A DNA stretch of 42,264 nt from Chloroflexota bacterium. Lineage in GTDB: Bacteria; Chloroflexota; Dormibacteria; Dormibacterales; Dormibacteraceae. The stretch is from contig VBEF01000075.1 of assembly GCA_005881275.1 (NCBI GenBank), positions 1 to 42,264 of the forward strand. The letters run 5' to 3'. Both the position numbers and the translations under genes were made by a program. Positions within the stretch are counted from its first letter, which is position 1. Each line of letters opens with the position of its first letter. The notes beneath the pieces were generated by a model. The model saw only the letters and a list, made by a program, of their open reading frames with translations, was not told where the DNA came from and did no database searches. Below are positions 31,309 through 38,314 of this stretch, piece after piece.

Positions 31309-33711
31309 TCAGTACGTTCGCTTGATGACGTCGCGTTCCATGAGGATCACGGCCTTCGAGGCGCTGTCGAGAAGAGGCGATTTGGCCTGTCTGAGCGCGA
31401 ACTCGAGCTGGCGCAGGAGCGAGTAGACGGCCTTCATCGCCTTGATGGCATCGCCGATGTCGACGTTCGCCGGCAGCGGGATCTTGTCGAGCGGCTCACC
31501 CGAAGACCACCGGTACGCGAAGTCGATGTAGTCGTGCGACGGCGAGCGTAGGTTGGGCTCATCCAGATCGCGCTCCATGTCGGCGAACCTGAAGTAGAGG
31601 GACCGGATGAGCCGTGCGGTTTGCGCGATCGCAGGTGTCGGATAGCGACGAGGTCCGCGCGACTGCCGGTCCCCGCGCCGCTCCCTGTCCTCGGCGGCCA
31701 GCATGACCATCACGCCGCACAGCTCTTCAGGCGTGAGCCCCTCGAACCAACCGAGCCAGACAGCTTCCGCCACCAGGATCGTGTTCTCGCCGTACACGCG
31801 GGCTGCGAACAGGCCCTTGTCGGTGGGCTTGTTCTTCTGGAGGAAGCCGGCCTCGTCAAGGATCCTCGCCAGACGCCGCAGCTTGCGCGGGTACTCATCC
31901 ATCTGGCCGGTGACCTCGCGCTGGCCTTTGTCCAGCTCTTGCTGCAGGGTGCGGATCTCGCCGTATTTCTGCAGGAGCTCGCCGAATCGTGGCGAGCGGA
32001 CCACCTTCAGCTTGCGCTGGCGCTCGAGCAAGCCCTTGGCCTCGATCTCGAGTCGCTGCGCCACCCTGCCCGCGTGGCCCGCCGACCGGTCCCGGCGCCC
32101 CCGGCGCCCCCGTCTCTCGGCGCCGGCCTCGCGGCGCAAGCGCTTGAGCTCGATCCGGATCGCGCGCCGGCGGTCCTCGATCTTGAAGTATTGCGCGACG
32201 TCCTCGATCGAGATCTGCGGGTCGTCCCACATTCGTTTGCTGTCCGCGAGCTGCTCGCGGACGTTGGCGAGCCGCTCCCCGGCGTCGGACGCGGCCAGCC
32301 TCTTCTGAAACTGTCCGAACGAGCGCTGCATCAGCTCCTCGGCCTCCTCGGGCGTGTAGACCCGAAGCAGGTTGAGCGCCATGTTGTAGCTCGGAAGGAA
32401 CTTGGACTCGACGACGAGCGTCGGGCCCATCGCGACCTCATAGATCGTTCCGACCTCGACGTCGGCCTCTTTGAGGATGGCGCCGTGGCCGATTACGTCG
32501 ATGCCGCGGCGCCCCGCCCGCCCCATCAACTGCGTCAGCTCGCCAGTGGTCAGGGTCGAGAAGTTGACGCCGTCGAACTTTGTGAATGACGAGACGACCA
32601 CTCCACGTGCCGGCATGTTGATGCCGAGCGAAAGCGTCTCGGTGGCGAACACGACCTTGATCAGTCCGCGCTGAAACAGCTCCTCGACCATCTCCTTGTG
32701 GTACGGCAGCAGCCCCGCATGATGCTCGGCGAGGCCGCGCCGCAGCAAACGCGCGTCCACCATGCGGCGGAAGAGCGCCTCTTCGTCCTTGTCCCTCAAC
32801 CCCTGCAAGCGCTCGGCGGCGACGCGGTCGATGGCTTCCTTCTCCGCCGCGGTCGTGAGGTCGAGCTCGTGATACGCGCACCGCTGAAGCGCTTCGCGGC
32901 AGCCACGGCGCGAAAAGATGAAGTAGATCGCCGGCAGCATCTCGAGGCGGCGCAGCTCAGGGATCACGTGCAGCAGGTCGTTCGACGGAAGGCCGCGATA
33001 TCCGCCTATCCGGTAAGACGCTTCCTCCTCCTGGGCCGCCCTGCTCCAGGTGCGCTGGTCGATGGCGCCGTCGTCCTTGAACAGCGGATGGAAGCGGTTG
33101 TTGATCGCGAGCCACATCTTCAGCTCGACCGGACGCACATCGTGGAACACCGTCTCCATGCCGCCGCGGTTTTCGGCCATCCAGTCGGCGATCTCCCGGT
33201 AGTTGCCGATCGTCGCCGACAGGCCGACGAGCTTGATCGTGCGCGGCGCCTGGATGACGATCTCCTCCCACACCGACCCGCGTGGGAAGTCGTCGATGTA
33301 GTGCACCTCGTCGAGCACGACGTAACGGACCAGGTCGAGGCGCGCGGGGTCTTCGTAGATGAGGTTGCGCAGGATCTCCGTCGTCATCACGACGACCGGC
33401 GCGTCGTCGTTGATCGTGTTCTCGCCGGTCACGAGACCGACCGTGCCTTCGCCGTAGGCGCGGACGAAGTCGTGATACTTCTGATTGCTCAGCGCCTTGA
33501 GCGGAGTGGTGTAAAGGACTTTCCCGCCGTCTCGGAGCGCCCTGAAGATCGCGTATTCCGCCACGATCGTCTTGCCGCTCGAGGTCGGCGCGCTGACCAG
33601 CACCCCGCCTTGCCCACGATCGAGCTTCTCGATGGCTTCGCGCTGGAAAGGATCGAGGTTGAAGGGCAGCGATTCCTCGAACTCTTCGATCAGCGACTCG
33701 ATTGCTTTCAC
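31309..33711 (-). CDS. Ski2/Mtr4-like (HelY-type) superfamily 2 helicase
   Basis: An 800-aa ATP-dependent RNA/DNA helicase. Motif I is APTSSGKT (41-48), Ia TPLKALSNQKY, the DExH box DEVH at 134-137, motif III GLSATIGN, and motif VI QLMGRAGRRGID near 400. The C-terminal part (about 600-800) resembles the DSHCT domain of Ski2/Dob1, and the middle is charged (RRRAIRIELKRLRREAGAERR). HelY of mycobacteria is the nearest named bacterial relative. Such proteins probably unwind structured RNA. It overlaps the upstream DUF503 gene by four bases, so the two are co-transcribed. Confidence 0.92.
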   Translation of the reverse strand: MKAIESLIEEFEESLPFNLDPFQREAIEKLDRGQGGVLVSAPTSSGKTIVAEYAIFRALRDGGKVLYTTPLKALSNQKYHDFVRAYGEGTVGLVTGENTINDDAPVVVMTTEILRNLIYEDPARLDLVRYVVLDEVHYIDDFPRGSVWEEIVIQAPRTIKLVGLSATIGNYREIADWMAENRGGMETVFHDVRPVELKMWLAINNRFHPLFKDDGAIDQRTWSRAAQEEEASYRIGGYRGLPSNDLLHVIPELRRLEMLPAIYFIFSRRGCREALQRCAYHELDLTTAAEKEAIDRVAAERLQGLRDKDEEALFRRMVDARLLRRGLAEHHAGLLPYHKEMVEELFQRGLIKVVFATETLSLGINMPARGVVVSSFTKFDGVNFSTLTTGELTQLMGRAGRRGIDVIGHGAILKEADVEVGTIYEVAMGPTLVVESKFLPSYNMALNLLRVYTPEEAEELMQRSFGQFQKRLAASDAGERLANVREQLADSKRMWDDPQISIEDVAQYFKIEDRRRAIRIELKRLRREAGAERRGRRGRRDRSAGHAGRVAQRLEIEAKGLLERQRKLKVVRSPRFGELLQKYGEIRTLQQELDKGQREVTGQMDEYPRKLRRLARILDEAGFLQKNKPTDKGLFAARVYGENTILVAEAVWLGWFEGLTPEELCGVMVMLAAEDRERRGDRQSRGPRRYPTPAIAQTARLIRSLYFRFADMERDLDEPNLRSPSHDYIDFAYRWSSGEPLDKIPLPANVDIGDAIKAMKAVYSLLRQLEFALRQAKSPLLDSASKAVILMERDVIKRTY

Positions 33712-34010
33712 AGCGGAACCCGCTCCGTGGAGACGTCGGTGATCCGGGCGCCGTCGGCGTGCGCCTCGATATACGTGAGCGCGGCTGCCAGGACGCGATC
33801 CGCCTGGCGAGCGTCACCGCTGACGGTCGCTATCGCGATCTCCGCCAGCTGCCAGCGATCCAGCTCACCGACTTCGGCCGCCGCCACCTTCAGCTCCTGA
33901 CGCAGGCGGCGAAGCAGCCCGCTGATCACCTGCCGCTTCGATTTCAGGGATCCGCTTTCGGGCATGTGGATGACGACGCGCATGAGTCCGACCGTCAGGG
34001 CAGCAGGCAT
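33708..34010 (-). CDS. DUF503 family protein (YlxP-like)
   Basis: A 100-aa ferredoxin-like small protein. VGLMRVVIHMPESGSLKSKRQVISGLLRRLRQEL (about 7-40) and the VAAAEVGELDRWQLAEIAIATVSGD block (about 42-66) match DUF503/YlxP. That family is often near nusA-infB-rbfA and linked to ribosome or RNA function. Here it leads a two-gene transcript with an RNA-type helicase, which fits an RNA role. A minus-strand TAATCT lies nine bases before the ATG, within the symmetric element shared with pyrE. Confidence 0.88.
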   Translation of the reverse strand: MPAALTVGLMRVVIHMPESGSLKSKRQVISGLLRRLRQELKVAAAEVGELDRWQLAEIAIATVSGDARQADRVLAAALTYIEAHADGARITDVSTERVPL

Positions 34011-37150: not shown

Positions 37151-37450
37151 CTAGTGCTCCAGGGCTTCCTGGATCCTCAGCCGAAGGGCGTCAAGCGAAT
37201 CGAACTTGTCCAGCGGTGGCTTGGCGCGCGGGCGGTCGGGGTACTTGGCAACCTGGACCGCCTCGAGCAGCAGCTCGATCTCGTCCGGCGAGAAGTTCAT
37301 GGTCTTGAGGACGACGGGCTCCTCCTTTACTTTGCCGGGGCGGTCGACTGCATCCTTGATCACGTCGTCGGTGTCGGACACCACCTGCGGCCGCGTGGGC
37401 CTGAAGAGGTCCTCCGAACCAACCAGTGCTACGCGCTTGAATGTCGGCAT
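37151..37450 (-). CDS. Small acidic protein, putative ParA partner
   Basis: A 99-aa protein downstream of the parA-like gene with a 17-base gap. Its N-terminus is basic (MPTFKRVALV ... FRPTRPQVV) and the rest is acidic and helical (SPDEIELLLEAVQVAKYP, then FDSLDALRLRIQEALEH). It lacks a ParB HTH. Short basic N-termini that stimulate the ATPase are common among partners of orphan ParA proteins, so a partner role is a reasonable hypothesis. No family is recognised. Confidence 0.6.
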   Translation of the reverse strand: MPTFKRVALVGSEDLFRPTRPQVVSDTDDVIKDAVDRPGKVKEEPVVLKTMNFSPDEIELLLEAVQVAKYPDRPRAKPPLDKFDSLDALRLRIQEALEH

Positions 37451-37467
37451 TTCTTCAGTTGACCCCT

Positions 37468-38241
37468 TTAATCCTGGACTCGGTGATTCTCAATTACCTT
37501 CGCCGCCAACGCGCGATACGCCTTGGCTCCATCGGACTCCTTCGCGTACTGAAGTATCGACTGCCCTGCGAGCGGCGTTTCCGCAAAGCGGATCGAGTCG
37601 GTCACTCCGAAGTCGTACACCTTGTCGCCGTACTTCTCCCGCACCGCGGCCAGCACCTCTTGCGAGTGCAGCGCGCGGTGCTTGTATAGCGTCGGCAAGA
37701 TCCCGATCAGCTCCAGCCTCGGATTGAGCCTGCGCTTCACCCGCTCCATCGTGATGAGCAGCTCCTGCATGCCTTTGAGGGCGAGGAACTCAGCCTGCAA
37801 CGGGACGAGCACCTCGTCCGCCGCAACCAGCGCATTGATGACGATGAGGTCAAGCGACGGCGGGCAGTCGATGATGATGAAGTCGTAGCGCCCCTTCGCG
37901 GCTTCGAGCTTGTCGCGAAGGATGCTCTCACGCCCGATCTCGTTGATGAGCTGGTTTTCCGCGCCCGCAAGCTCGATATCGGCGGGGATGTAGTGGACGC
38001 CCATCTGCGGCGCCTCCTGGACGACGTCGGTCACCGTGGTCTCAGGGTCGACCAGAAGGTGGTAGATCGTCTTCTCGAGTTCGCCGGACGGTTTCATGTA
38101 GAGCGTCAGGTGGCCCTGTGCGTCGAGGTCGATGAGGAGGACGCGCTGTCCGACCTCGGCCAGTGCTGCGCCCAGGTTGACGGCGGTGGTGGTCTTGCCA
38201 ACCCCGCCCTTCTGCATCGCGACGGCGATCGTTCGGGCCAA
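37468..38241 (-). CDS. ParA/Soj-family ATPase (orphan)
   Basis: A 257-aa deviant-Walker ATPase. KGGVGKTT (11-18) is the deviant Walker A with the signature Lys, DLDAQGHLT (about 38-46) is Walker A', and IIIDCPPSLD (about 117-126) is Walker B. It positions DNA or protein cargo on the nucleoid. The TTG start at 38241 puts AVAMQKGG where ParA proteins begin, with TAGACT ten bases upstream; an ATG at 38295 would add an unrelated tail. No parB or parS-like dyad is present, so it is not the chromosomal partition locus as seen here. Confidence 0.88.
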   Translation of the reverse strand: MARTIAVAMQKGGVGKTTTAVNLGAALAEVGQRVLLIDLDAQGHLTLYMKPSGELEKTIYHLLVDPETTVTDVVQEAPQMGVHYIPADIELAGAENQLINEIGRESILRDKLEAAKGRYDFIIIDCPPSLDLIVINALVAADEVLVPLQAEFLALKGMQELLITMERVKRRLNPRLELIGILPTLYKHRALHSQEVLAAVREKYGDKVYDFGVTDSIRFAETPLAGQSILQYAKESDGAKAYRALAAKVIENHRVQD

Positions 38242-38314
38242 GAGCGATGCGAGTCTAACTGAAGATCGGCAAGAAGGGGTTCCGGGGCCCGTCATCTAGA
38301 ATGGCGCCCGACCT

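Follow-up and report, generated by a model that had tools for sequence, protein, structure and literature searches.

Among the described systems closest to the gene pair treated here, the partner proteins of TP228 ParF-ParG and pSM19035 delta-omega have the RHH fold, and in PomXYZ the activator is an N-terminal peptide and PomX a large scaffold. In ParB and McdB it is the N-terminal ~20 residues that touch ParA or McdA, according to the cited parts of a paper and a preprint (PMC12462528; preprint PMC12204374), and many ParA/MinD ATPases are called orphans, their partners being unidentified, in the part cited of another source (PMC10241942). An earlier note on the DNA analysed here (the window, a stretch of 42,264 nucleotides that is contig C20 of a 2.9 Mb genome, 86% complete) had likened an orphan ParA gene and the small gene behind it to cargo-positioning systems of the McdAB kind. 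We follow the pair through related genomes and hypothesize, at a probability of about 0.6, that it is a two-gene ParA-type positioning module, in which a nucleoid-bound ParA would work with an adaptor carrying a trigger box and a cargo hairpin.

The gene pair and its distribution in the Dormibacteria

Both genes lie on the minus strand. The ATPase (37468..38241, 257 amino acids when read from TTG 38241) matches AAA_31 at 2.2e-58, and the partner, an ORF of 99 amino acids (37151..37450, starting at ATG 37450), belongs to a family without a database name in the Dormibacteria. The 17 nucleotides between the ParA end at 37468 and the partner's ATG (37451..37467), a spacing that the earlier note had given correctly, include a ribosome-site-like AGGGG stretch as read from the sequence. 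The longest ParA ORF runs from ATG 38295 to 37468 on the same strand. A -10-like hexamer, TAGACT (38252..38257, minus strand), which is a putative promoter, falls within this longer frame about 10 nucleotides 5' of the TTG; as the block TTAGACT it occurs in 20 of 22 aligned upstream regions in the window's family, those of loci L008 and L026 being without it, and the stretch between ATG 38295 and TTG 38241 carries indels among relatives. Because of the block inside the longer ORF and the indels between the two starts, TTG 38241, the start first proposed, is the better one, and with a -10-like hexamer so near it the parA transcript may be leaderless. Across the 64 pairs measured, the gap between parA and partner ranges from -17 to +22 nucleotides, with 34 pairs overlapping and 30 at 0 to 22 nucleotides; these counts leave out L077, L061, L031, L026 and L073 (a mis-set start, a broken frame or, in L031, a duplicate of the window), and single gaps may be off, some starts having been picked by nearness to the expected one.

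Conservation of the pair had been named as one of the things to check. At E<=1e-3, 91 of 101 genomes, the window's own included, contain a relative of the partner; at E<=1 the number is 93, with the matches in genomes G005 and G085 at chance level. When a family profile was run against a draw of 400 genomes from the phylum, no more than 12 candidates being scored in each genome, it found the partner at E<=1e-3 in 53 of 55 Dormibacteria and in none of 345 others, so that within this draw the family looks restricted to the class. Scanning one genome per species with the pattern GS[ED][ED]LFR[PS]T, which finds only partners carrying that form of the box, gave 61 stretches, 48 of them relatives; the stretches come mostly from soil MAGs labelled Candidatus Dormiibacterota or 'Chloroflexi bacterium', one (L105) being labelled Bacillota, and NCBI taxonomy places Candidatus Dormiibacter in the class Candidatus Dormibacteria, which we assume to be the class of the genomes compared here.

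The earlier note had also allowed that the small gene might prove unlinked to parA in relatives. Of the 69 loci that match the partner, a count that includes the window, 67 have parA immediately 5' of it in the same orientation (L075, chosen as a pair locus, has no such match), the exceptions being L070, a second copy in genome G023, and L077, a fragment at a contig end. A same-strand ParA match is likewise present in 46 of the 48 pattern-scan loci, whose genomes overlap those of the 69-locus set; two of their gaps come out at 782 and 270 nucleotides, values that we take to be artefacts, caused by an upstream stop and by masked bases. Since relatives occur in 91 of 101 genomes and adjacency holds in 67 of 69 loci, the pair is not a product of chance. 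The second partner copy of G023 (L108:6001-6285, the same as L070) has no parA match in its locus and lies just 3' of a 511-amino-acid glycosyltransferase-like ORF. Genome G046 (91% complete) has no partner and a single ParA at 1e-50, at the canonical level, while the other 30 of 31 class genomes show two or three; partner and orphan parA are thus absent together in this one genome.

The genes around the pair differ from family to family. Matches to CvpA occur in 26 of the 36 loci of the window's family against 1 of 33 (L061) in the other three families, and matches to MBL in 32 of 36 against 11 of 33, while DUF503 (0 of 36 against 22 of 33) and the helicase (0 of 36 against 21 of 33) show the reverse, with locus lengths that vary and make the absences soft. 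In the f3 loci read, HemE/HemH-like and ABC-transporter-like ORFs, named by reading, lie nearby. As the neighbours vary in this way, the conserved unit is the ParA/partner pair itself, and the divergent CvpA gene, present in the window as described, is no class-wide pointer to a cargo. In the window, genes for a Ski2-like helicase and DUF503 (31309-34010) lie on the same strand as the pair, and in many f2 and f4 loci they sit downstream of it, which suggests an older cluster of helicase, DUF503 and pair that has been broken in the window by pyrE/pyrC-like genes.

Anatomy of the partner and residues of its ATPase

By alignment and predicted structure, the partner has three parts: an N-terminal box that is conserved, a linker that varies and a helical hairpin at the C-terminus. 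The box (residues 1-19, 37394..37450, minus strand; consensus F[KR]R..L.GS.ELF[RQ].T) holds five of the six invariant columns of a 41-row alignment, and mean column identity falls from 0.75 in the box to 0.36 in the linker and rises again to 0.55 over the C-terminal part (residues 47-99, 37154..37312, minus strand). The partner sets leave out L077, L061 and L031. Residues 1-20 carry a net charge of +2 in the window and of +2.0 on average over 66 distinct homologues, so the N-terminus is basic as first described, if weakly, with a range of 0 to +3; the remainder of the protein is acidic, with a mean charge of -3.9 in the same homologues. AlphaFold2, run with 40 rows, predicts an extended stretch followed by helices at 55-69 and 80-98, with block pLDDT values of 78-88 from residue 51 on and of 54-63 before it. 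The C-terminal part may be a dimerisation or cargo-binding hairpin, and the box, since known partners bind ParA or McdA via their N-terminal 20 residues, is the natural candidate for the peptide that contacts ParA.

Family searches placed the protein nowhere firmly. The window's partner has no NCBIfam match and no match over cut-off to Pfam or to any HTH family, in agreement with the absence of an HTH reported before; a Myb-like match at residues 51-66 stays below threshold at E 0.23. Over 41 family members the best Pfam match reaches E 0.0025, in one member only, with no ParB family among the Pfam matches listed. When the hairpin was compared with known structures, Foldseek gave no match at E<=0.001 (best E 1.9) and VIA a best Z of 3.6 over 42 residues, with just 9 chains, and neither showed an RHH entry, an absence that does not speak against that fold.

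A partner without cargo, serving purely as a regulator of ParA (or, by way of ParA, of transcription or replication), would account equally well for the adjacency of the genes and for their overlapping starts, and no cargo gene is linked across the families. The hairpin is separately conserved, however, with 6 columns at >=90% within residues 47-99, which suggests a second binding surface, and we regard such a cargo-free role as decidedly unlikely.

Turning to the ATPase, the deviant Walker A motif with its signature lysine (KGGVGK) and the equivalents of Asp60, Arg209 and Arg238 in M. xanthus numbering are present in all 63 orphan ParA rows; positions were transferred via the aligned solved chain 8ray, and the counts are not dereplicated. 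The protein keeps its catalytic and DNA-binding residues, Arg209 presumably being one of the latter, and is predicted to be an ATPase and DNA binder. At the positions tested for the ParB-peptide pocket of M. xanthus ParA, as given in the cited part of PMC12462528, all 63 rows retain Leu150 and Leu192, 62 retain Leu152 (the other has Val), and position 155 stays aliphatic. The equivalent of Leu187, by comparison, is Arg in 63 of 63 orphan ParAs against Leu in 45 of the 48 canonical ParAs of the class. In the window's family, though not in f2-f4, Val116 is replaced by Asn, Thr, Gly or Ala and Gly151 by Asp, Ser or Asn.

In a midpoint-rooted tree of 105 ParAs all orphan ParAs from the class fall together (support 100/100), and its canonical ParAs form a separate group (100/90); ParA matches of fewer than 190 residues, L061 among them, were left out of the tree and the residue counts, and L074 and L073 are unlabelled in the tree. 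The canonical parAB genes of the window's genome lie on another contig (L032), and because a canonical ParB match is present in 96 of the 101 genomes, ParABS is a system separate from the orphan pair. The changed pocket fits a separation from canonical ParB in the same cell, but the Arg is not special to the orphan lineage, as it also occurs in canonical ParAs (8 of 25 from other members of the phylum and 1 of 48 from the class).

A conserved, linked pair, restricted to the class in the phylum draw, with intact ATPase residues, one changed pocket residue and a three-part partner, is what a mechanism has to explain, and for the positioning module we infer ATPase activation, dimerisation, cargo binding and crosstalk avoidance. 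With ATP, ParA would form dimers that bind the nucleoid irrespective of DNA sequence, and the box of the partner would dock at the ParA dimer interface and so bring about ATP hydrolysis and release. The C-terminal hairpin would dimerise and hold the cargo, which would thereby be spread over the nucleoid or centred on it. Such a module would run beside the canonical ParABS, with the Arg at the M. xanthus Leu187 position limiting crosstalk between the two. Points against the module are the outcome of the ParB-box test described below, the partner copy of G023 that has no parA beside it, and the occurrence of the same Arg in some canonical ParAs.

Candidate cargoes, DNA sites and relatives outside the class

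An McdAB-like system serving a bacterial microcompartment would share with the locus a ParA gene and, behind it, the gene of a small partner whose N-terminus is charged, the arrangement given for McdAB in the cited part of PMC8262871. Set against this, the BMC shell family PF00936 is present in 1 of 61 Dormibacteria genomes and not in that of the window, which already refutes the idea as a general function in the class, and Trp occurs anywhere in 1 of 66 partners, that of the window ending in IQEALEH, while the C-terminal Trp of McdB is invariant according to the part cited of PMC11321042. The chance of this reading is close to nil, and membership of the pair in McdAB is not supported; the wider likeness to cargo positioning that the earlier note had drawn is partly supported, by a conserved and linked pair and by the N-terminal 19 residues, which are the most conserved of the partner, as would be expected if they contact ParA. 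The sole BMC shell-protein genes among the 61 genomes are in G064, on contigs C79 and C82.

Microcompartments (1 of 61 genomes), chemoreceptors, the cargo in ParC/PpfA-type positioning (MCPsignal, 8 of 61, none in the window's genome), and bactofilin (53 of 61) were each rejected as an obligatory cargo on these counts; bactofilin is missing from the four f4 genomes G050, G054, G056 and G058, in which the partner is present nonetheless. Placement of division or polarity, in a role like that of MipZ, PomXYZ or MinDE, would be a special case of the positioning module with its cargo named. MinC (PF03775) was found in none of the 61 Dormibacteria genomes against 6 of 14 control genomes, and a core role would require a presence as wide as the partner's 53 of 55 class genomes. 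On the other side, the search covered MinC alone, and no division gene was noticed among the ORFs read beside the pair in the part of the loci that was annotated; we think it quite unlikely.

Outside the class, the ParAs that score best against an orphan ParA, from G110, G240 and G262, stand in a grouping (support 98/91) that includes the orphan clade. The partners read beside such ParAs, in 40 loci that are part of those found, are of several kinds: a membrane protein in L206 (N-terminus MPRRVSLKGKGAEIF), a long RHH-like protein in L207 (MPRNQRVSIRGKGSDIFF), another membrane protein in L208 (MRKKRASIRGRGSELLGRGVDALF), nine short RHH-like proteins within the same grouping (M.[KR]R..[VL]P[ED]GK..F) and, also within it, ParB-type proteins with ParB_N and HTH_ParB in L231 and L236, where 'RHH-like' and 'membrane' are readings of sequences with no Pfam family over cut-off. 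A further branch holds L228, with ParB_N and HTH_ParB, together with L222, L229 and L244; L208, L236 and L231 are long branches, and the inner order of this second-ParA lineage is unsure. A parB beside orthologues, which the earlier note had named as a refuting find, was not seen in the class loci read; these cousins outside the class do adjoin ParB-type genes, and so the lineage probably descends from partition systems or swaps partners with them.

Several observations on these relatives stand by themselves. The membrane-type proteins with a partner-like box (L206:2958-4574 and L208:2139-3506) each adjoin a ParA, and their family occurs in 6 of 301 phylum genomes, L206 and L208 among these; a similar box is present in L258 and L259, with no ParA within loci of ~3.7 kb, and in L260 and L261, of the membrane family, the box is not seen. 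The short RHH-like proteins (by eye) of L218, L219, L226, L230, L232, L235, L239, L240 and L243 make up another family of small proteins that pair with ParA. This family was detected in 11 of 301 genomes of the phylum, in one of these weakly, and in no Dormibacteria; the ParAs next to its nine members carry KGGSGK, with Phe at the 150-equivalent and Asp or Glu at the 187-equivalent, in 9 of 9 cases. A second ParA with a ParB-type partner, assigned by tblastn and by Pfam for L228 only, is found in L222, L228, L229 and L244, the partners being without a GLGRGL-type box (for example MARPDFRAAAARRLSE in L228).

By eye, the partner N-terminus strikingly resembles a ParB box (LRGSDELF against GLGRGLDALF), a likeness that was not supported when an HMM of 21 distinct Dormibacteria ParB boxes ranked the partners with background: the best of them reached -0.6 bits, at rank 99 of 736 reported (955 given), and default weighting gave the same outcome. 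In the reverse test the partner-box HMM was run against 889 other N-termini (881 background ORFs and 8 typed ones, with L206 and L208 counted twice each, their typed copies duplicating background entries). An unrelated ORF came first (11.0 bits), ahead of the membrane partner of L206 (4.3), a background ORF (3.9) and the membrane partner of L208 (3.3, tied with another background ORF); neither L206 nor L208 is significant alone, and the short RHH-like partners are not among the 35 matches listed. L208 does carry a ParB-type box, at 9.5 bits, exceeded only by N-termini that by eye have such a box. A box common to the cousin partners is a pattern seen by eye, to which the tests gave weak or no support.

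The hairpin raises the question of whether the pair is a second DNA-partition system, its partner a diverged RHH centromere-binding protein like ParG or omega and its cargo a chromosomal DNA site. The nearest ParAs outside the class pair with ParB_N and HTH proteins or with RHH-like ones, besides membrane proteins, and in the hairpin two helices come after an extended stretch, with the C-terminal end of the L207 partner resembling it by eye; one of 41 members matches a PHROG called Arc-like repressor (0.009, the best PHROG match), and 6 of 41 have weak Myb-like matches (best 0.017). Homology of the hairpin to RHH proteins was nevertheless not significant, with hhalign giving a probability of 0.2% and P 0.25 against the RHH-like partners and a C-terminal HMM giving L207 just 3.5 bits and E 11, 44th overall against a background that includes L176-L205, which contain the partner itself. 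A centromere-like repeat array was sought around four pairs (window, L047, L052 and L058), where only two-copy families appeared. Scanned with what we take to be the parS consensus, neither the window nor the 70 pair loci contain a site at <=2 mismatches, a search to which just 7 of 50 canonical parAB loci are positive, so that the absence weighs little, and the window has none at <=3. Outside its box the partner is acidic, and none of the four pairs is surrounded by a repeat array; for these reasons DNA seems to us a less likely cargo than a protein or a component of envelope or division, and we regard a second partition system as unlikely.

Returning to the positioning module, a broader reading may be put forward tentatively, though we are more inclined to doubt it than to adopt it: the phylum's second ParA lineage would keep one activating box ([KR]R.[SAV][LIV]..G...[LI]F-like) and repeatedly swap the cargo end, which would be ParB-type, RHH-like, an integral membrane domain or a new helical hairpin, and the Dormibacteria module would place an undescribed universal cargo, for example the division site or an envelope complex in bacteria where no MinC was found.

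The pair among described ParA systems

The comparison defines, throughout a class, a family of ParA partners that has no database name and a single conserved box; a pocket residue sets the orphan ParA apart from the canonical ParA of the same cells, and cousins carry other cargo domains. On this basis two questions become testable: by what means ParA systems that share a cell escape crosstalk, and how their partners come to exchange one cargo for another. If the cargo were the division site the pair would tell how bacteria without MinC place division. A literature search, thin on subscription journals, turned up no paper that we recognised as describing the pair.

With ParABS (Soj/Spo0J) the pair shares the ParA fold, the Walker motifs, the DNA-binding arginines, a partner gene directly downstream and an N-terminal partner peptide proposed as activator. 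It differs in a partner that has neither a ParB_N or HTH_ParB match nor a GLGRGL-type box, in Arg for the pocket Leu187, in the lack of any parS seen and in coexisting with a canonical parAB elsewhere in the genome. McdAB is arranged similarly, with a ParA-type ATPase and, encoded downstream, a small non-ParB protein whose N-terminus is charged and which includes a disordered stretch, but the partner here is without the C-terminal tryptophan, its hairpin is predicted with fair confidence and 60 of 61 genomes have no microcompartment genes. The partners of TP228 ParF-ParG, of pSM19035 delta-omega and of the RHH-like cousins resemble it in an N-terminal tail and a C-terminal extended stretch with two helices; unlike those of ParA-RHH systems, this partner is acidic and accompanied by no centromere-like array, and the C-terminal homology is not significant. 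From PomXYZ, with PomX as its large scaffold, the pair differs in its small partner and in being linked here to no division gene. The two have in common a ParA/MinD ATPase and a non-ParB partner, which in Myxococcus activates the ATPase according to the part cited of PMC7993993. By the features tested the pair is neither McdAB nor ParABS, and its mechanism is of a known class; what looks new is the partner family, together with its fixation in the Dormibacteria.
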